Shown: positions 32,269-41,093 of the stretch, one piece after another | Layout: the number at the start of each line of letters is the position of its first letter | How positions within the stretch are numbered: the stretch's first letter is position 1 | Source of the DNA: Nocardioides sp. HDW12B | Lineage (GTDB): Bacteria; Actinomycetota; Actinomycetes; Propionibacteriales; Nocardioidaceae | Length of the DNA: 64,000 bases | Direction: 5' to 3' | Assembly (NCBI RefSeq): GCF_011299595.1 | Contig: NZ_CP049867.1 | Coordinates: 3,844,001 to 3,908,000 of the forward strand | Translations under genes and position numbers: made by a program | The notes under the pieces: model-generated | Told to the model about the DNA's origin: nothing | The model's database searches: none | What the model saw: the letters and a program-made list of their open reading frames with translations, nothing else

Positions 32269-32814
32269 CTACATCGTCAACAAGTCTGCTGCGGTCCGAG
32301 GCAACGCCGGGCTTCGTCCTTCCGCGACCATCTGTTCCAGCATGGCGAAACCGTCCGCTGGTGTTCTAACGAACCCCCATTGAACGGCTTCGGCGACGAG
32401 GTGCTGCGTCTCTCGAACGCGTATCCCCTGGTGTCGCGCCACTCGCAGCGATTCCTGATCATCACTGATCCAGGTCGAGCCCGCGTAGTCAGACCAGCGC
32501 GAGATTACGTGGATTGTCTGAGCCTCCCCGAGGTGCTGGGTGGCCAGTGCTGCCGTGCCGCCGAAGACAGCCCTGCGGATGCCTTCTACCTGTAGTTGCT
32601 CGACTTCGTCGCTGATTTCTACCGGGTCGCTCAGCAATCCCTCATCAGCGATGGACTTGAGGCCAGGATAGATAGTCGCCGACTTATCACACTCGTACGC
32701 GACAGCCTCTACCCACCGGCCGTTGCCGTCCAGTAGCTTCGCCAGCAACGGCAACTGACCGACGCATACGAAGTTGCACAGCACTGTGTTGTCAGGGAAC
32801 AGGTATGTGCTCAC
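32269..32814 (-). CDS. PIN-like toxin candidate paired with Xre-ImmA protein
   Basis: A 181-residue protein starting MSTYLFPDNTVLCNFVCVGQ, a first strand with an Asp (D8) like that of PIN-domain ribonucleases, followed by acidic residues (AVAYECDKS; EAQTIHVISRW; STWISDDQESLRVARHQG) in PIN-like spacing, the DDQE segment resembling the third and fourth acidic positions. The GTG start overlaps the stop of the Xre-ImmA gene (GTGA), so the two are translationally coupled. This is the arrangement of toxin-antitoxin modules in which the ImmA/IrrE-type protein controls the partner. The PIN assignment is by motif reading, not proven. Confidence 0.6.
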   Translation of the reverse strand: MSTYLFPDNTVLCNFVCVGQLPLLAKLLDGNGRWVEAVAYECDKSATIYPGLKSIADEGLLSDPVEISDEVEQLQVEGIRRAVFGGTAALATQHLGEAQTIHVISRWSDYAGSTWISDDQESLRVARHQGIRVRETQHLVAEAVQWGFVRTPADGFAMLEQMVAEGRSPALPRTAADLLTM

Positions 32815-33941
32815 GGCGCAAAGTCGTCCGCCTCATCCGCTCCAGACGGCTGAGGCGCAGATTCAACTGCGCTCCGCAGCACCTCAACCGGTACGTGCAA
32901 CAGGTTAGCGAGCGGTCGAAGAGTCGTCTTTCCTTCGACGTAGGCCTGGAATAGGTCCTGTACGAGGCGTACCGGGATGCGGGGCTGACTACTTGCTTCG
33001 ACCCACCTTGCGTACTCATTCATCCGCTCGGCAACGGCGGCACAGTCGACGGTTCGCATCGCTCCCAACTGTGCGCGTCGCTCCGAGGACAGAACCTTCA
33101 AGTTAAAGAGGCGCCAGGCGAGGGAACTCGGCGACACCTTGAGGTCCATGACTGCCTCAGCAAATACCCGCTCGGTCACGACGGGCTGGTCGAAGCGGTC
33201 CGCTAGGGCGGACTCGGGCATGAGCAGTGCTGCCGCGAAAGCGTTTGCCCTGACTTCTGAGGATTCGCCGCGTGATCCGGCCATGACGTTCTCGTCGATA
33301 TGGAGGCCCTGATCGTCACCGCACAAGAGATGAGACAACTCGTGCGCCATCGTGAAGCGCTGGCGCGTGGGATTCTCGGTTGCGGCGACGAGCAGCACCC
33401 TCGCGCCGCCTCTCGTCGAAAGCGCCAGTCCGTCGCAACCACCGTCCAGTTCCATCACACGCACGTCGATGCCAAACGCTCGTTCGATGGCGGTCGCAAA
33501 GGTTTCAGACGTGTCGAGCACGTGCGGCACGCCTAGATGAGATATGGCGAACTCTGCAAGCTCTGCTCCCTGTTCGATCCAGAGGTGGCTCTGTGGTGTC
33601 GGCGGTTTTGGCCAGTCATGAGCTCCGCCGAGGTGCAGCACGTTGTCGCGCGACTCAGCGAGGTTCGATGCTTCGCCCACCGCAAGGCTGATTGCGGACC
33701 CGTGCGCGGAAACCCGCGCAGCGACGGCCGGCCCCTCCTCGCCAGACAGAAGCCAGTCCACGGTCACATCGCACGTCTCGGCGATGCGCGCGAGTTCGAG
33801 CGAGGTGAATCGACGCCGGCCATTCAGCGCCTTCGACAACTTGGAACTGTCGAGGCCGATCGCCGCGCCAAACGTCTCTTGCGTATGGCCAGAGCGAGCG
33901 ATCAACTCACGGACTCTGTCTTCGAGCATGACTGAGGGCAC
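32811..33941 (-). CDS. Xre helix-turn-helix fused to ImmA/IrrE-type metallopeptidase
   Basis: A 376-residue protein. An Xre domain occupies residues about 8-66 (TQETFGAAIGLDSSKLSKAL, VDWLLSGEE). An ImmA/IrrE-family zinc peptidase follows at about 135-300, with the HExxH motif in FTMAHELSHLLCG (His200, Glu201, His204) and downstream EVRANAFAAALLMPES giving the third ligand region. Such COG2856 proteins cleave repressors or serve as antitoxins. A sigma70-like promoter (TTGCCA, 17 bases, CACAAT) ends five bases before GTG 33941, implying a leaderless transcript and fixing the start there. It is divergent from the ubiquitin-like operon across 229 bases. Confidence 0.88.
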   Translation of the reverse strand: MPSVMLEDRVRELIARSGHTQETFGAAIGLDSSKLSKALNGRRRFTSLELARIAETCDVTVDWLLSGEEGPAVAARVSAHGSAISLAVGEASNLAESRDNVLHLGGAHDWPKPPTPQSHLWIEQGAELAEFAISHLGVPHVLDTSETFATAIERAFGIDVRVMELDGGCDGLALSTRGGARVLLVAATENPTRQRFTMAHELSHLLCGDDQGLHIDENVMAGSRGESSEVRANAFAAALLMPESALADRFDQPVVTERVFAEAVMDLKVSPSSLAWRLFNLKVLSSERRAQLGAMRTVDCAAVAERMNEYARWVEASSQPRIPVRLVQDLFQAYVEGKTTLRPLANLLHVPVEVLRSAVESAPQPSGADEADDFAP

Positions 33942-34170: not shown

Positions 34171-34431
34171 ATGACTGCAACGCAAGCAACGACCGGCACC
34201 ACGAAACTCGCCACGATCGTCGTCAACACCAAGCGACATGAATGGACGGAGAAGAAGATCACCTACGAGCAGGTCGTAGAGCTCGCCTTCCCGGGCCAGC
34301 CGTACGACCCGGCCGGCACCTTGGTGGAGTACAGCCGAGGGGAAGGTCCAGATCACTCGCTGCGTCCGGGGAAGGACGTACCGGTCAAGGACGGAATGGT
34401 CTTCGATGTCGAGCCCGCCAACCGCTCCTGA
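34171..34431 (+). CDS. Multiubiquitin-type beta-grasp (ubiquitin-like) protein
   Basis: An 86-residue protein with one beta-grasp unit of the multiubiquitin family (TIVVNTKRHEWTEKKITYEQ, VVELAFPGQPYDPAGTLVEY, SLRPGKDVPVKDGMVFDVEP). The lysine-rich first hairpin, the 'VVELAF' helix and the 'G-PV-DGM-F-V' last strands are standard for these Ubls. It has only one unit, while many relatives carry several. It ends EPANRS with no di-glycine, so it is not an obvious ready-to-conjugate tail. ATG 34171 has GGAG seven bases upstream. It overlaps the E1-like gene by 26 bases. Known from comparative genomics to co-occur with E1-like and DUF6527 genes; the biological role is unknown. Confidence 0.88.
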   Translation: MTATQATTGTTKLATIVVNTKRHEWTEKKITYEQVVELAFPGQPYDPAGTLVEYSRGEGPDHSLRPGKDVPVKDGMVFDVEPANRS

Positions 34432-35569
34432 CGAACAGGTCGCCCGTCTGGTGGCCGACGGCTACGACATGGTGCTCTCAGGTGGGCACCTCGTCGTACG
34501 TCGGCTTCCATACGCCACACCCTCTGGCCTCCGAGCCGACGGCCGGCTTGTTCTGCCCGTTACCTACGCGGGAGGCATGGTGGCTGATGCAACCGACCAT
34601 CGGATCTGGTTCGCCGGCGAGGAGCCCTGCGATGACAAGGGTGCACCCCTTGCCACAGGCGGGCAGGCGCACGGGTTCGGGAACGGCGAGACGGCCGATT
34701 ACATGCTGTCCTTCAAACCCCCGAGCGGCGCCTACGCCAACCTCTTCGAGAAGATCAAGCAGTACTCTTCTATCTTGCTCAGCGCAGCGCGCCAGGTCGA
34801 CGCGTCTGCTACCGCTACTCCCGGCGGGTCTCTCCAGGTCGTTCCAGACGATCTGCCGCTGGTGTACTCCGACTCGAGTACAGCCCGTGTCGGTCTGACG
34901 AACCTGAGTGGCCTCTTTCGCGGGCACACAGTTGCCATCGTGGGCGTAGGCGGCACGGGCAGCTACATCCTGGACCACCTCGCCAAGACCTGGGTGGACC
35001 GCATCATCCTCATCGATGGAGACAGGTTCGAGCACCACAACGCCTACCGCGCCCCTGGCGCAGCGGCAGAGCAGGTCGTCCTGACCGAACCGAACAAGGC
35101 CGAATACTTCGCCAGCGAGTACTCGCGGATGCACACCGGCATCAGCGCCCACCCCGTCGCGCTCACCGCCGACAACCTGAGCCTGCTCGAGGGTGCCACC
35201 TTTGTGTTTGTCGCAGCAGCGGATGCAGAGGCAAGACCAGTGATCATGCGATGGCTCCGAGACCGGGGGGTGCCCTTCATCGATGTCGGGATGAGTTTCC
35301 GCGAAGGGGAAGGTGGGCTCACGGGCATCGCGAAGGTAGAGGCGTACCTACCCGGTGACGACAGATCCCTGCCGACAGCGCCAGCCGTTCCACCGGGACA
35401 GGACGACTACAGCAGCAACGTGCAAATTGCAGAACTAAACGCACTCAATGCGGCGCTGGCGGTCATCCGCTGGAAGCGCTACCTCGGCTTTTATGCGAGC
35501 CACGAGACGTCGAACCAGACGATCTACAAGCTCTACCTCAACGAGCTGCGAAACGGGGACACGCAGTGA
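34406..35569 (+). CDS. DUF6791-ThiF family E1-like adenylyltransferase
   Basis: A 387-residue protein. The N-terminal part (about 10-150) matches the DUF6791 domain: GGHLVVRRLPYATPSG, DHRIWFAGEEPCDDKGAPL, then a KPPSGAYANLFEKIKQY segment. The C-terminal part (about 165-375) is a ThiF/MoeB-type E1 fold with nucleotide loop AIVGVGGTGSYILDHLAKTW (180-199) and Mg/ATP acidic residues in RIILIDGDRFEHHNAYRAPG. The only cysteine in the whole protein is Cys75, in the GEEPC motif of the N-terminal domain; the E1 part has no candidate catalytic cysteine. It probably adenylates the adjacent ubiquitin-like protein. Its GTGA overlap with the DUF6527 gene makes a three-gene coupled operon. Confidence 0.88.
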   Translation: MSSPPTAPDEQVARLVADGYDMVLSGGHLVVRRLPYATPSGLRADGRLVLPVTYAGGMVADATDHRIWFAGEEPCDDKGAPLATGGQAHGFGNGETADYMLSFKPPSGAYANLFEKIKQYSSILLSAARQVDASATATPGGSLQVVPDDLPLVYSDSSTARVGLTNLSGLFRGHTVAIVGVGGTGSYILDHLAKTWVDRIILIDGDRFEHHNAYRAPGAAAEQVVLTEPNKAEYFASEYSRMHTGISAHPVALTADNLSLLEGATFVFVAAADAEARPVIMRWLRDRGVPFIDVGMSFREGEGGLTGIAKVEAYLPGDDRSLPTAPAVPPGQDDYSSNVQIAELNALNAALAVIRWKRYLGFYASHETSNQTIYKLYLNELRNGDTQ

Positions 35570-35964
35570 CGCGTACCGAGCAATACACCGTCGAATTCGT
35601 CGAGTCCTTTCCCTCACCGATGGAGCCCGGCGTCCTATACGCATCCATTCCCTACTCTACGGCCGGACATATCTGCGCCTGTGGGTGCGGCCGTGAGGTT
35701 GTCACCAAGCTCTCGCCAGCACGCTATCGAGTCGTCTTCGACGGTGAGGTCTCGCTGCGACCTTCTGTCGCAGCGACTGGATTGCCCTGTAACTCTCACT
35801 ACTTCATCACTCGGGGACAGGTGGAGTGGCACCCGAATCTTGACTCCAAGCAGGTGGCGCGAGCACGTGCCGTCGATCGACGCGCTGTAGAAGATCACCG
35901 GCCCGCGAACCGGCAGGCGCCGAGCAGCTGGTGGAGGCGCATCGCGCGGCGCCATCGTGCCTAG
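35566..35964 (+). CDS. DUF6527 cysteine-rich protein of the ubiquitin-like operon
   Basis: A 132-residue protein with the DUF6527 pattern: PGVLYASIPYSTAGHICACG with His35 and Cys37/39/41, a central SLRPSVAATGLP segment, and PCNSHYFITRGQVEW with Cys75 and His78. The Cys/His set looks like a metal site. The family regularly accompanies multiubiquitin and DUF6791-ThiF genes; whether it is a protease, ligase adaptor or substrate binder is not known to me. The GTG start overlaps the E1-like stop (GTGA). The C-terminal 45 residues are basic and Arg-rich and seem extra to the domain. Confidence 0.85.
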   Translation: MTRTEQYTVEFVESFPSPMEPGVLYASIPYSTAGHICACGCGREVVTKLSPARYRVVFDGEVSLRPSVAATGLPCNSHYFITRGQVEWHPNLDSKQVARARAVDRRAVEDHRPANRQAPSSWWRRIARRHRA

Positions 35965-36166: not shown

Positions 36167-36385
36167 GTGGCCAGAGGCCGCAGTTCAGGTAAGGCGTACC
36201 GATCCGCGAGGACCGGGCGCTACGTCACCAAGGGAACGGCGACGCGGAGTCCGCGTACGACCGTCGCCGAGTCCGGAGGCAACAAGAGCACCGGCAAGGC
36301 GTACCGCTCCGCCATCAGCGGCCGGTACGTGACGAAGGGGCACGCGCAGCGTTCTCCCTCGACCACAGTTACCGAGAACGGGTGA
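36167..36385 (+). CDS. Small basic protein with two internal repeats (GRYVTK repeat)
   Basis: A 72-residue, Arg/Ser/Thr/Lys-rich protein made of two nearly identical units: TGKAYRSA or SGKAYRSA, then GRYVTKG, then RSP-TTV followed by a short acidic end. Short proteins with this GR-V-K...P-TTV motif occur widely in bacteria with no known role; some are misnamed multidrug transporters. GTG 36167 is fixed by AGGAGG eight bases upstream. It stands 200 bases after the DUF6527 gene on the same strand and may be a separate cargo gene. A strong hairpin follows its stop. Confidence 0.75.
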   Translation: MARGRSSGKAYRSARTGRYVTKGTATRSPRTTVAESGGNKSTGKAYRSAISGRYVTKGHAQRSPSTTVTENG

Positions 36386-36532: not shown

Positions 36533-36997
36533 TCAGGCAGGGTCCAACTTAAGGAGACGTCTCGCGAGAGCCTGGAACTCGTCAACCGCATCAACTGCTT
36601 GCTGCCGCGACCCTGAAGTGAAGGCCCAGCCATGTAGGTGCTTCGAGGCCTCGAGAGCAGCATCTGCGGCTTCCTTCGGCCCAATGATGAGTACCAAGTC
36701 GAGGGCGCCGATGACCCGCTTCAGCGGCCCTTCATGGCCGTGATCTCCAGGCAGCTCGCCCTGATGGTCGAAGTCATATTGGTCCGTCTCGTTGATCGCC
36801 GTCTGGCACGCGGCAGCGAAACCGACGTAGGCGTCCCGTCGGCTCTCGAAACGTGCCTCGTCTATCTCGTGGCGTCGTTGAGACTCGTCGCGCGCAAGTT
36901 GTCTCCTCTCGGCACGGACGTCCCGAACCAGTCCTAGTCCCCCGGCTACCAGCACGCCCGCCAATGTGCTGACCGTTCCAATCCATTGCGGGTCCAT
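36533..36997 (-). CDS. Uncharacterised membrane-anchored protein
   Basis: A 154-residue protein with one N-terminal membrane helix (WIGTVSTLAGVLVAGGLGLV), then a long charged helix (RAERRQLARDESQRRHEIDE) likely to form a coiled coil, and a helical C-terminal half. This topology (short anchor, coiled coil, helical domain) is common among small island-encoded proteins of unknown role. A minus-strand frame 36436-36684 overlapping its end carries a plausible continuation (TLPEGWRERLAAEWARSDGS) up to the terminator, so a frameshift near 36545 is possible. I do not recognise a family. Confidence 0.55.
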   Translation of the reverse strand: MDPQWIGTVSTLAGVLVAGGLGLVRDVRAERRQLARDESQRRHEIDEARFESRRDAYVGFAAACQTAINETDQYDFDHQGELPGDHGHEGPLKRVIGALDLVLIIGPKEAADAALEASKHLHGWAFTSGSRQQAVDAVDEFQALARRLLKLDPA

Positions 36998-37105: not shown

Positions 37106-37756
37106 TCAGGCGTCGGGGATTAGCGGGTAGCGCGCGGCGAGGTCGTCGATATTGGGAAAAAACTCGCCGGGGCTGCTCAACAAGAGAACCTCTTCCCCAC
37201 TCGCATCGTCCACGATGTCCGTCGTCCATCCAGCTGGGAAGCCAAGGCCAGCTTCAAGTTCATCGATGGAACCGGACCACACCACTGGTACCTCGACTCC
37301 CCACATGGCTCGGAAGTCGTACAACCACTCTTGAACTAGTCGAACCAGCACACCCATATGTCGCTCGGAAAGCGCGAAGGCGTCGAGGTCTTGCTCTCGG
37401 GACGACAACTTCGCCGTAAGCGATTTGGGAAAGAACTGCTGAGCTCGTTGACCGGGACCTCCCACCCCGGAGTTGAGACCGACATCGCCCACCTTCTGCG
37501 TGATGTTGCGCATGTTGACCATGAACCGGCCCCTTGGGCCGGCCAGGAGGCGGTTGCGCCTCTCTTCGTACCAGTCGTCCCACTCACCGTGGCCGGACAT
37601 AACGGCTTGCATGGTGAACGTGACGCTGCGCGCAGACGCTAGGAAGGCAGTGAAGTCACATTGGAAAGCCCAAACGTTGAAGCCAGCTTCGCCCATGCGC
37701 CCGAGGAAGTAGTCGGCCTCGCGCAACTTATTCTCAACCAGATCCACGGATCGCAC
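37106..37756 (-). CDS. Uncharacterised protein, possibly HEPN-like
   Basis: A 216-residue soluble protein. The segment LREADYFLGRMGEAGFNVWA followed by FQCDFTAFLASARSVTFTMQ resembles helical proteins annotated HEPN-like or AbiU2-like, in which a helix with AFLSAARSV is typical. I do not see the canonical R-x4-6-H ribonuclease motif with certainty, so catalysis cannot be claimed. The GTG start at 37756 is the best available. Composition matches the accessory block. It could be a stand-alone defence or regulatory protein. Confidence 0.5.
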   Translation of the reverse strand: MRSVDLVENKLREADYFLGRMGEAGFNVWAFQCDFTAFLASARSVTFTMQAVMSGHGEWDDWYEERRNRLLAGPRGRFMVNMRNITQKVGDVGLNSGVGGPGQRAQQFFPKSLTAKLSSREQDLDAFALSERHMGVLVRLVQEWLYDFRAMWGVEVPVVWSGSIDELEAGLGFPAGWTTDIVDDASGEEVLLLSSPGEFFPNIDDLAARYPLIPDA

Positions 37757-38878: not shown

Positions 38879-40057
38879 TCAGGATGCGAGCTCGCGGGCG
38901 AGCGTACGGAGTTCTTGTTCCCGAAAGGGGTACCCAAGGAGGGTGCCAACGCGGCCGAGGATCAGCTCGACCCCGTCGGCGCTCGCAACGACGTCCCCGT
39001 CGAAGTCCTCCTCGGCGTAGAGGAGGTCCTCGAGGTCACTAACGGCGGCAAGTTCGAGTCCGGCGACGAGGTCGGCCTGGTCGAAGTACACGTCGTCGGC
39101 GTAGCGCAGGGCGTACTCCCGCGAGGTGACCTCGGGGTCGTGGAAGACCCGGGGGTCGACAGTAAGGAAGCGATACGGCGAGCGCAGCAGCCGCTGCCAC
39201 ACCTCCGATACGGTGCCACCGATGGCTCGCTGCTCGGCCCGCGGCAGCGACCCTTGGTATGCGACGTTGGCCGGAGACAGGACATGCAGGACCCGGACCG
39301 TGGAAGCTCCCTCGGCGCTCGCCTTCTCGAGCTCGTGGGCGAGGAGTTGCTGACGCACCAGTTGGTAGAGCGGCTCGTCGAGGAGCAGTCCGAAGTCGAG
39401 TACGTCGTCGCGGACCGGACCCTCGGGGTCAGCAACGAACGCGGCGTATCGTCTGGCGCGGACCTCGTCCCTCTTGGCCTCCGGCCGGCGTTTGCGGTAC
39501 GACTCGGTGTACTTCCACTCGACGAGAGCGAGTTCGACCTGCCCCTCGGTGGTGCGATAGCAGAAGGCGGCGTCGACGCTCGTGCAGTGGGCGCCACGCA
39601 CACGGTCACCGCTGGGACTCTCCCCGAAGAAGTCGGTCGGCCCGATGTACTCGAACGTCAGGTGCCGGCCCGGCTCTATCTCGAGGACCTCGGCGATGTC
39701 GAGGTGCTGCCCGAAGGCCGCGATGACCCGGGCGGGGTCTCGCACCATTGGGGCGAGAGCGTTGACGCACTGGACCTGCGAGGACAGCAGATGGTTGCTT
39801 GGCCCACCGCCGGATCCGTCGACGCCGGCGTGCCAGGGGATGCCCAGCTCCGCGAACATCGTCAAGGCCAGGTCGCGCGCCTCCGGCAGCAGCGATAGAG
39901 CAGAGTGCCGGGCGGGCAGACAGAAGGGGTACGGCGTTCCGTCCGACCGACCGGACTTCGTCACGTATGGAGCCGGGATGCGGGCACTCTCGGGCAGAGT
40001 GGTCGATGTGGCCTTCCAGCGGGCCGCGCGCTGTCGTTCTCGAGCTGTGTAGTTCAT
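38879..40057 (-). CDS. PGN_0703-like putative restriction endonuclease (PD-(D/E)XK)
   Basis: A 392-residue protein resembling the PGN_0703 putative restriction endonuclease group: SSQVQCVNALAPMVRDPARV near residue 92 and a nuclease core RGAHCTSVDAAFCYRT (Asp162) followed by ELALVEWKYTESY (Glu180, Lys182), a PD-(D/E)XK-type D...ExK arrangement. Further on come conserved helices with LLLDEPLYQLVRQQLLAHEL. No methyltransferase gene is adjacent, which argues against a classical restriction-modification pair. ATG 40057 is chosen as the first residue of the conserved region's open frame. Confidence 0.7.
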   Translation of the reverse strand: MNYTARERQRAARWKATSTTLPESARIPAPYVTKSGRSDGTPYPFCLPARHSALSLLPEARDLALTMFAELGIPWHAGVDGSGGGPSNHLLSSQVQCVNALAPMVRDPARVIAAFGQHLDIAEVLEIEPGRHLTFEYIGPTDFFGESPSGDRVRGAHCTSVDAAFCYRTTEGQVELALVEWKYTESYRKRRPEAKRDEVRARRYAAFVADPEGPVRDDVLDFGLLLDEPLYQLVRQQLLAHELEKASAEGASTVRVLHVLSPANVAYQGSLPRAEQRAIGGTVSEVWQRLLRSPYRFLTVDPRVFHDPEVTSREYALRYADDVYFDQADLVAGLELAAVSDLEDLLYAEEDFDGDVVASADGVELILGRVGTLLGYPFREQELRTLARELAS

Positions 40058-40124
40058 CGAGTTCAATCTAGGCGCGACCACCGACAACCATGGGTGCCGA
40101 TCTACAGTGCGATTGGTCGTTGCG

Positions 40125-41093
40125 TCACGCGAGAGGAGTGAGGTTGCCGGTGATGGAGACCTCAAGGATCTCGACAGGTGGCAGCCCGAGGGCGGCGTAC
40201 GGCAGGGCATCGCGCACGGCGATCATGCGCTCTTTCTGCTTCTGCCCTGCCCCGCGCTGGAGCGCGACCACCGGCGCGACCGGCAGGCTCAAATCCACCA
40301 GAAACGGCGCGTCGAACAGGCCGAGCTTCTGCCGCTGCTGGACTGTCCCTCGCACGATGTCCTCCGCCCGGTCATCTGCGGCGATCCACTCATTGAGCAG
40401 ACGGGCATACATCGTCGCCTGTGCGGCGACCCATGCGATACCGGCGCCGTCGTAAGGTTTGACCTCGATGGCGACCAGCTGGCCCGTGTCGGGGCGCAAG
40501 GCCAGCAGGTCGCACTCCGGGCCGAACTTCTTTGGGGTCACCCCTGGGATGTCCGACGGGAGCGCGGCCACGATGGGCTCGTAACACCGGGTGAGGATCC
40601 TCTTCCTGGTGTCCTGGTCGCGGAAGCTCGTGACGACCTCACGGTCGAGCATGACCCATGACTTGTCCCGTGACATGCTGACCGCCGCCTGCACTGCCCC
40701 CTCGGTGACTCCGTGCGACTTGGTCGCCGCTGGGATGACCCGCTCGAGGTAGAGCTCGACGTCGGTCCACGCGCTCGCAAGCTCGTCCTTGGAGAGGTCG
40801 GACCTCCAGTGCTGATCGAAACCGTACTTCGACTTCTTGCTCCAAGTGTCGTGGGCGCTGAGCCGAAATCCTCGTGACCGATCCTCGACGTTCAGAACCG
40901 CGGTGAGGCCGGCATAAACGGTTGCCCATTGCCGACCGGTCTTCGCATCCTTCCGAAACTGCAGATCGAGCGGAAATGCCGCATCACGGGCCATCGGCGC
41001 CAGTGATGCCGCTACCCCACCCCCCAGGAAATGGCTCAGGAACTCTCCTGTGACGACGCGGTCGTATCTGATCTCGAAGTCTTGCCTGGCCAT
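40125..41093 (-). CDS. Putative PD-(D/E)XK nuclease-like protein
   Basis: A 322-residue protein. The segment FGPECDLLALRPDTGQLVAI followed by EVKPYD gives Asp195, Glu210 and Lys212, the D-x(n)-ExK pattern of PD-(D/E)XK nucleases and Holliday-junction-type folds. The N-terminal 180 residues are of unknown fold, with an aromatic- and charge-rich stretch (DTWSKKSKYGFDQHW). It precedes the PGN_0703-like gene on the same strand by 67 bases and may be co-transcribed, giving two nuclease-like genes side by side. ATG 41093 has GGGG about nine bases upstream. The role is unassigned. Confidence 0.6.
   Translation of the reverse strand: MARQDFEIRYDRVVTGEFLSHFLGGGVAASLAPMARDAAFPLDLQFRKDAKTGRQWATVYAGLTAVLNVEDRSRGFRLSAHDTWSKKSKYGFDQHWRSDLSKDELASAWTDVELYLERVIPAATKSHGVTEGAVQAAVSMSRDKSWVMLDREVVTSFRDQDTRKRILTRCYEPIVAALPSDIPGVTPKKFGPECDLLALRPDTGQLVAIEVKPYDGAGIAWVAAQATMYARLLNEWIAADDRAEDIVRGTVQQRQKLGLFDAPFLVDLSLPVAPVVALQRGAGQKQKERMIAVRDALPYAALGLPPVEILEVSITGNLTPLA

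Follow-up and report, generated by a model that had tools for sequence, protein, structure and literature searches.

Gene content and type of the operon

A 64,000-nt stretch of the single-contig, 4.19-Mb genome of Nocardioides sp. HDW12B (contig NZ_CP049867.1, positions 3,844,001–3,908,000), referred to here as the window, carries a compact operon of three genes that encode a ubiquitin-like protein (Ubl), an E1-like protein and a Cys/His-rich partner. The Ubl gene (34171..34431, + strand) encodes 86 amino acids (aa) with a single multiubiquitin-type domain (Multi_ubiq, 57.2 bits) and the end ...VFDVEPANRS; the E1-like gene (34406..35569, +) encodes 387 aa, with an N-terminal DUF6791 domain (aa 11–156, 99 bits) followed by a ThiF adenylyltransferase domain (aa about 160–387, with the Pfam match at aa 171–300, 51.3 bits); and the DUF6527 gene (35566..35964, +) encodes 132 aa (71.6 bits). 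A preliminary description of this DNA, made from the sequence alone, had named the three coupled genes in this way, and both the names and the couplings hold: the Pfam matches for Multi_ubiq, DUF6791, ThiF and DUF6527 all lie above the family cut-offs, Multi_ubiq matches in one stretch, i.e., as a single unit, and the coordinates of the open reading frames (ORFs) give exactly a 26-base overlap between the Ubl and E1 genes and a GTGA junction between the E1 and DUF6527 genes.

The ORF list and Pfam matches of the operon proteins contain no E2 and no JAB gene, as had been noted before, and Pfam finds no JAB domain in the window E1. Among the ten proteins encoded at 32–40 kb, neither Pfam nor PADLOC matches a CD-NTase, E2 or JAB, and PADLOC leaves the Ubl and DUF6527 proteins without a match and the E1 with only weak E1-E2 matches (best 32.2 bits over 45 residues). 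Searches of the complete genome with Prok-E2_E and Prok-E2_B were empty, as were their controls, and an E2 may well be encoded elsewhere in the genome. The sole Prok-JAB match of the genome (L091, at about 946,700 of contig C1) lies in a ClpS/CysO/CysM-type locus, where the neighbors, read from their ORFs, are genes for ClpS, CysO and a cysteine synthase in an ordinary actinobacterial arrangement.

The preliminary description had also assigned the genes to the prokaryotic Ubl operons of Iyer, Burroughs and Aravind, and they fit type 6e of their 2006 survey, specifically the subset in which another domain stands in place of JAB (PMC1779556, in the part of the text available). We infer that DUF6791 is the ‘domain X’ of that survey. 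This kind of operon has thus been in print since 2006, and the chemistry of the DUF6791 type is predicted. The earlier remark that the biochemistry is unsettled calls for a correction: for the related Bub pathways there are already solved structures and papers (Gong 2025, Ye 2026). Our search of the literature available found no mention of DUF6527 or DUF6791 by name, and neither a Ser tail nor the 26-base overlap in print, although Chambers 2024, Ye 2026 and Gong 2025 may treat this subset.

Co-occurrence of the three genes

A profile of ten E1 proteins recovered at least 588 relatives from species genomes, of which the best 80 were kept, together with nine plasmid loci. The resulting set comprises 90 loci (the window and L002–L090; L001 is the window itself and was dropped); because E1 similarity was the basis of selection and many of the loci are relatives of one another, counts among them are not independent events. 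Counts of the Ubl tail are based on 89 loci including the window, with L016 left out (no Ubl, and an E1 match that begins at residue 64). L002–L010 were left out of alignments A4 and A5, and the near duplicates L018, L026, L037, L060 and L085 were omitted from A5 (73 of 78 given).

The Ubl is present in 89/90 loci and DUF6527 follows within 900 bases downstream in 86/90; among the four misses, L063 has the gene about 2 kb away and L067 and L029 lie close to contig ends. A second view comes from a separate survey of 396 genomes of the phylum, where DUF6791 occurs in three, DUF6527 in four and Multi_ubiq in 13 (11 over the cut-off), and where all three DUF6791 genomes have the three matches in a row. 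The fourth DUF6527 genome has an operon of Ubl, Prok-E2_E, E1 and DUF6527 genes, in which the JAB match of the E1 is below the cut-off (17.6 bits). The co-occurrence supposed in the preliminary description is borne out, and the grouping is more than chance. The DUF6791 type is rare within the phylum (3/396 genomes), and the relatives include members of the Actinomycetota, Pseudomonadota, Bacteroidota, Chloroflexota, Acidobacteriota, Planctomycetota, Verrucomicrobiota, Spirochaetota and Patescibacteria, as well as from a cyanobacterium and one uncultured archaeon.

The serine tail and the gene overlap

The C-terminal Ser of the window Ubl (codon at 34426..34428, +) is the predicted site of adenylation. 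The last residue is Ser in 88/89 loci and Ala in one (L048), the penultimate residue is always Arg (44), Lys (33) or Gln (12), and farther upstream Thr is found at –4 in 81, Val at –7 in 81 and Phe at –9 in 86 loci, which gives the usual tail F-x-V-x(5)-Ser. All 88 Ser-tailed Ubls spell the Ser as TCN; as TCN and AGY codons are not interchangeable in one step, this uniformity fits a Ser that was never given up.

In 84/89 loci the Ubl and E1 genes overlap by exactly 26 bases, with the E1 start codon (ATG in 83, GTG in one) lying within the tail codons and in a different frame (34406..34431, +, in the window). The start was assigned by this 26-base rule, which agrees with the annotated start in 9/9 plasmid records. 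Three of the other five E1 genes were assigned a start one codon later at a TTG (overlap 23) and two a start just past the Ubl stop. The Asp or Asn at –8 of the Ubl contributes to the spelling of the E1 ATG, and in these five loci (L041, L042, L062, L065 and L087) it is replaced by Ala or Thr and [KR]-Ser is kept, which argues that the tail is conserved for the Ubl's own sake. The fixed start can hardly be explained by the E1 itself, since its residues 1–6 have a predicted local distance difference test score (pLDDT) below 50 in our model. Translational coupling of the E1 to the Ubl may be the simplest reading of the overlap. We do not favor a Ubl-E1 fusion by frameshifting, given Ubl stops of all three kinds (TGA 37, TAG 32, TAA 20 in the 89 loci) and an E1 frame that in many loci is blocked by a stop a few codons ahead of the E1 start.

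A beta-grasp fold of the window Ubl is suggested by the Pfam match and, weakly, by the sequence of a solved multi-ubiquitin protein (9cd2), whose third domain is matched at E 0.0075. Relatives with two or three units exist (L006, L007, L008, L010). Counting units by ORF length was dropped, since it takes the longest ORF and misjudged the window Ubl itself (262 vs 86 aa).

The E1-like protein and its DUF6791 domain

A structure model of the E1 built with 80 sequences (pLDDT 89.1, predicted template modeling score 0.84) bears out the nucleotide-binding fold that had been predicted for 34406–35569. In a Foldseek search against solved structures, the Citrobacter BubCD occupies ranks 1–8 (E 2e-13), followed by MccB and UBA5; a comparison with VIA aligns 224 residues of aa 161–387 with BubCD (Z 24.1, root mean square deviation 3.1), and BubCD is also the best sequence match of the E1 profile in the PDB (46.3 bits). 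Residues G182, G183, G185, D204, D206, R215 and K231 are identical in 80/80 E1s.

No Cys of the ThiF half is kept in more than 31/80 E1s. The candidate nucleophile is Tyr335 (35408..35410, +), which immediately precedes the final long helix in the ThiF half and is invariant in 80/80. A crossover-loop Tyr is present in the E1s of 11/11 JAB-type operons, and by our numbering, which takes D104 to be the JAMM Asp, Tyr370 of BubCD (Phe in 9eav) is the Tyr of RGYITG; Tyr335 may plausibly play the same part. Ye and colleagues (2026) reportedly describe both ester and thioester intermediates. The fold does not require a Gly tail, since the peptide substrate of MccB has Asn as its last residue.

In the model, DUF6791 combines alpha and beta elements, and it carries a motif H65...G71...P74-C75 (34598..34630, +), in which H65 and G71 are kept in 80/80, P74 in 79/80 and C75 in 70/80 proteins; P105 is also invariant. 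C75 is the sole Cys of the entire E1 protein conserved in more than 31/80. H65 and C75 are 10 residues apart (H65-x9-C75), a spacing that raised the idea of a hidden UBC-type E2, which is disfavored by an hhalign probability of 0.7% against 11 Prok-E2_E proteins. The corresponding values were 0.1% against 11 JAB halves and 14% against DUF6527, and a Pfam scan of the 80 members contained no E2 or JAB family among the 25 of 27 families shown. The fold-search matches of the whole E1 were filled by the ThiF half, and the DUF6791 fold is thus not claimed to be new. For domain X, the available part of the 2006 survey describes a beta-rich domain with conserved charged residues and guesses at a JAB-like role (PMC1779556); the ready-made Ubl tail speaks against a need for trimming at least.

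The DUF6527 protein and its viral relatives

The Cys/His set of DUF6527, from an alignment of 73 sequences, consists of C37, C41, C75 and H78, which are invariant, and H35 and C39, which are kept in at least 90%; it suggests that the protein probably binds zinc. The model (pLDDT 89.2) is beta-rich with a C-terminal helical part, and found no fold match in the PDB at E ≤0.001 with Foldseek and nothing above Z 3.2 in a second search. The spacing is unlike the C-x3-C-x(35-38)-H-x2-C printed in the portion of the 2006 survey at hand, which guessed at a target-recognizing role for the Cys/His protein of such operons (PMC1779556). The family is the same as that in the JAB-type operon L108 (62.8 bits).

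DUF6527 also occurs in viruses. An 89-aa protein of the Foldseek viral library (A0A8E7FZU2) matches at 7.6e-12 with 42% identity, and a scan of viral contigs with the DUF6527 profile gave 34 loci (L132–L165), in 31 of which Ubl and this E1 were not found within at most 4 kb per side, with less flanking DNA than that in several. Three GenBank phages carry DUF6527 (MW812339.1, LC667451.1 and PP511379.1; two genomes are above 240 kb), and no E1 match was found in 50,697 phage records. None of the 31 distinct orphans, which lack the C-terminal part, extends more than one residue past position 88, compared with medians of 48 residues for the operon proteins and 9 for seven JAB-type proteins, and 30/31 fall in one clade with modest support (0.795). 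The 38 viral-contig proteins aligned, seven of which do have an E1, all retain H35, C37, C39 and C41, and 26 of them retain C75. The stand-alone phage proteins could be decoys or inhibitors serving counter-defense, or could form an independent phage family that was the source of the operon's DUF6527. The scan pattern was derived from the DUF6791 subtype, so that JAB-type copies could escape it; tblastn with the JAB-type DUF6527 of L117 gave no match in phages.

Comparison with JAB-type operons and known systems

We examined 11 JAB-type operons (L108 and L116–L125; the divergent L111 and L113 are not among them), which encode a multiubiquitin-type Ubl and a Prok-E2_E-like protein, either separate (L108, 117 bits) or fused to the Ubl. 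A match or an annotation identifies DUF6527 in 9/11, and JAMM residues are visible in the five JAB-type E1s printed. All 11 Ubls have a Gly tail: two end in TTTEG, two have INPG followed by two or three residues, and in seven TT[EA]G runs on into the E2-like domain. Cutting would be needed in 9/11 of these Ubls and in none of the DUF6791 type, which is the clearest contrast between the two types and fits predicted trimming by JAB in one and its absence in the other.

The domain-X subset of type 6e, in the text of the survey available, comprises a Ubl of one to three units, an E1 in which another domain replaces JAB and a Cys/His protein (PMC1779556). The window operon resembles this subset in its multiubiquitin-type Ubl, the non-JAB N-terminal domain of its E1 and the Cys/His partner, but differs from the type as a whole in having no inactive E2/RWD-like gene; the same portion mentions neither a tail Ser nor a 26-base overlap. 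The closest studied relatives are the Bub pathways, with a Ubl (BubA), an E2-like protein (BubB) and a JAB-E1 (BubCD) and with solved structures (PDB 9ea4, 9ea5, 9ea8, 9eae and 9eav). The window operon shares with them the multiubiquitin-type Ubl and the BubC-like E1 fold (Z 24), and DUF6527 and HTH/ImmA neighbors are common to it and the JAB-type relatives; unlike Bub, it has no BubB and no JAB (BubD), its Ubl ends in Ser rather than Gly, and the stretch of its E1 round the crossover Tyr is shorter. The protein of 9cd2 (ZDHYS365) has three units as opposed to one, and its chain, whose third domain aligns with the window Ubl, reads ...FYVTQTDK plus one unprinted residue, which fits a tail F-x-V-x-x-T-x-K-S. 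Type II CBASS (Cap2), a cyclic-oligonucleotide-based antiphage signaling system, and Bil share the E1-like ThiF domain, but the CD-NTase, E2 or JAB components were not matched among the ten proteins at 32–40 kb.

Genomic neighborhood

Divergent from the operon lies a gene for a single protein with HTH_3 (29.3 bits) and Peptidase_M78 (70.4 bits) domains (32811..33941, – strand; capP 73.3 bits), a probable regulator of the ImmA/CapP kind that confirms the ImmA neighbor of the preliminary description. An M78 relative (eight queries) is found within 7 kb in 55/89 loci and is divergent and upstream in 40, and relatives of UvrD (two queries) and WYL (one query) are near the operon in 10/89 and 1/89 loci, all of which are lower bounds, as many loci have little flanking DNA. 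The loci with a UvrD-like helicase are L006, L007, L010, L057, L077, L079, L081, L082, L084 and L085, and the helicase is possibly a second kind of partner. The arrangement is like CapH+CapP in combining an HTH and an M78 peptidase divergent from the operon, and unlike it in that both domains are fused in one window protein. The accessible part of one study reports CapW or CapH+CapP beside 219/544 Bub operons (PMC13373217), and a link to M78 proteins was noted already in 2016 and read, in the text available, as toxin-antitoxin stabilization (PMC4963859). Phage defense by the operon is a fair guess.

Beyond the HTH-M78 gene lies a gene for a 181-aa protein without a recognized domain (32269..32814). 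It had been labeled PIN, a label that its matches do not support: they are weak and unrelated (best Pfam 0.045, NCBIfam 0.0024, PADLOC 0.0062), with none below 0.2 in the PDB. The pattern of its acidic residues is one that we take to be PIN-like. Downstream of the operon, a 72-aa protein (36167..36382, +) is built from a repeat of roughly 35 residues (SGKAYRSA..GRYVTKG..) that occurs twice, and has no Pfam or NCBIfam match at E ≤1 and one weak PHROG match. A REase-ARP family nuclease is encoded farther on (38879..40210, –, 115.5 bits), and near it are two proteins without Pfam matches (36533–36997 and 37106–37756) and an endonuclease/exonuclease/phosphatase family protein. The surroundings of the REase-ARP gene are a defense-like block, and the ‘defense-island-like’ setting proposed earlier is partially supported, with the REase-ARP gene and a low G+C content at 32–38 kb in its favor. 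The G+C content is 0.62–0.64 over 32–38 kb compared with 0.71–0.76 over 26–32 kb, and an E1 match is present in 3/58 relatives searched (the window's own genome counted; one of the three is marginal) and in none of four other genomes of the same genus, one of which is only 82% complete. Because of the low G+C patch and the absence from these four genomes, the block was probably acquired. At least 80% of the E1 is matched by 108 plasmid records.

Proposed mechanism and alternatives

We propose, at a probability of about one half, that the operon encodes a stripped-down pathway related to Bub, with an adenylated Ser tail, transfer through a Tyr, conjugation aided by DUF6791 and DUF6527, and control by HTH-M78. 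The E1, as its fold and conserved residues suggest, would bind the Ubl and adenylate the C-terminal carboxylate of the Ser with ATP, and no trimming would precede this step, the Ubl gene ending exactly at the Ser. The activated tail would then pass to a nucleophile of the E1, most likely Tyr335, and from there to target proteins. DUF6791, placed where Bub enzymes carry JAB, may do the job of a separate E2 by holding the acceptor or the Ubl, and DUF6527, probably with zinc, may recognize the Ubl, the E1 or the targets. The overlapping start codon would couple E1 synthesis to translation of the Ubl, and the divergent HTH-M78 protein, by analogy with CapH+CapP, in which ssDNA activates cleavage of the repressor, would repress the operon until DNA damage occurs. 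The likely purpose would be a stress response or phage defense.

Several observations weigh against this proposal. The fold does not single out Bub, as the BubCD match in VIA is tied with ThiF, a sulfur-carrier enzyme (Z 23.5), and this tie says E1 superfamily first and Bub second. Of the residues named with the adenylation site of MoeB in the accessible text (Arg73, Lys86 and Asp130; PMC12355090), the Asp is replaced by Ala in the window and 10 relatives (E1 residues 272–273); these 11/80 E1s form one clade (FastTree support 1.0), and Asp stands at the next position in 11/11 of them compared with 28/69 others, which may or may not compensate for the loss. Tyr335 and the Tyr of the JAB-type E1s do not line up cleanly, with a 13-column gap opened beside Tyr335. 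DUF6791 has no sequence relation to Prok-E2_E or JAB halves (hhalign <1%), and C75 is replaced by H, R, L or V in 10/80, and for these two reasons we do not favor a cysteine-E2 mechanism. As for the tail, the JAB-type Ubls of L117 and L120 end exactly in Gly with no trimming needed, and the Ubl of the divergent L111 (weak Prok-E2_E match) ends in Ser too. Bub itself, in the part of the study available, is not shown to protect against phage (PMC13373217). The ThiF tie and the two trim-free JAB-type Ubls lowered our confidence in the mechanism and raised that in a sulfur-carrier role. A bolder version, in which one enzyme runs the full cycle on a Ser-tailed, Tyr-loaded Ubl without E2, trimming or deconjugation and phages answer with short DUF6527 proteins, we consider rather doubtful.

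The sulfur-carrier role belongs to a wider alternative without conjugation, in which the adenylated Ubl would serve sulfur transfer or the modification of a small molecule or peptide, as in ThiF-ThiS, MoeB-MoaD or MccB. The operon has no recognizable E2 or E3, the only Cys conserved in more than 31/80 E1s is C75 (70/80), and the structural matches that come next include MccB, UBA5 and ThiF, with ThiF level with BubCD in VIA, all of which would suit such a use; yet the neighbors of the operon in nine annotated plasmid loci show no recurrent sulfur or biosynthetic gene, the Ubl ends in Ser and not Gly, and the DUF6527 partner also occurs in JAB-type operons equipped with an E2-like gene or domain, and we regard this alternative as unlikely. 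The loss of the canonical Asp in the window clade would instead agree with a weakened E1 and a non-covalent complex of Ubl, E1 and DUF6527 acting as a switch or effector, as would the absence of an E2 and of a deconjugating protease from the operon; the Ubls of two or three units (L006, L007, L008 and L010) could assemble, and oligomers appear in the title of Gong 2025, the part of that paper available. Against this, the window clade retains the other residues for adenylation as well as the tail Ser, and we find a purely non-covalent role improbable.

The neighborhood allows a further interpretation, in which the HTH-M78 gene and a partner form a toxin-antitoxin locus that keeps the Ubl cassette on mobile DNA. 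The 2016 paper, in its accessible part, so reads the finding that 70% of PF14452 proteins adjoin HTH/COG2856 loci (PMC4963859), and the plasmid records, the low G+C patch and the missing E1 match in the four genomes of the same genus are in keeping with mobility. Pairs of HTH and M78 proteins are, however, now seen as DNA-damage regulators of adjacent immune operons (PMC13373217, in the text available), and no M78 relative was found within 7 kb in 34/89 loci, many of which have less DNA than that, so that addiction appears to us just as improbable as a non-covalent switch.

Implications

The noteworthy point of the DUF6791-type operon is its economy: it encodes neither an E2 nor a protease, and its Ser tail is conserved with hardly an exception. 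If a Ser-tailed Ubl is indeed activated and ligated by one E1, this would be one of the smallest systems of the ubiquitin kind, and it would break with the Gly ending that, to our knowledge, activated Ubls have. As the tail is exact, the Tyr invariant and the overlap fixed, the question is open to a few simple mutations, and the DUF6527 core carried by phages points to where a role in conflict with viruses could be sought.

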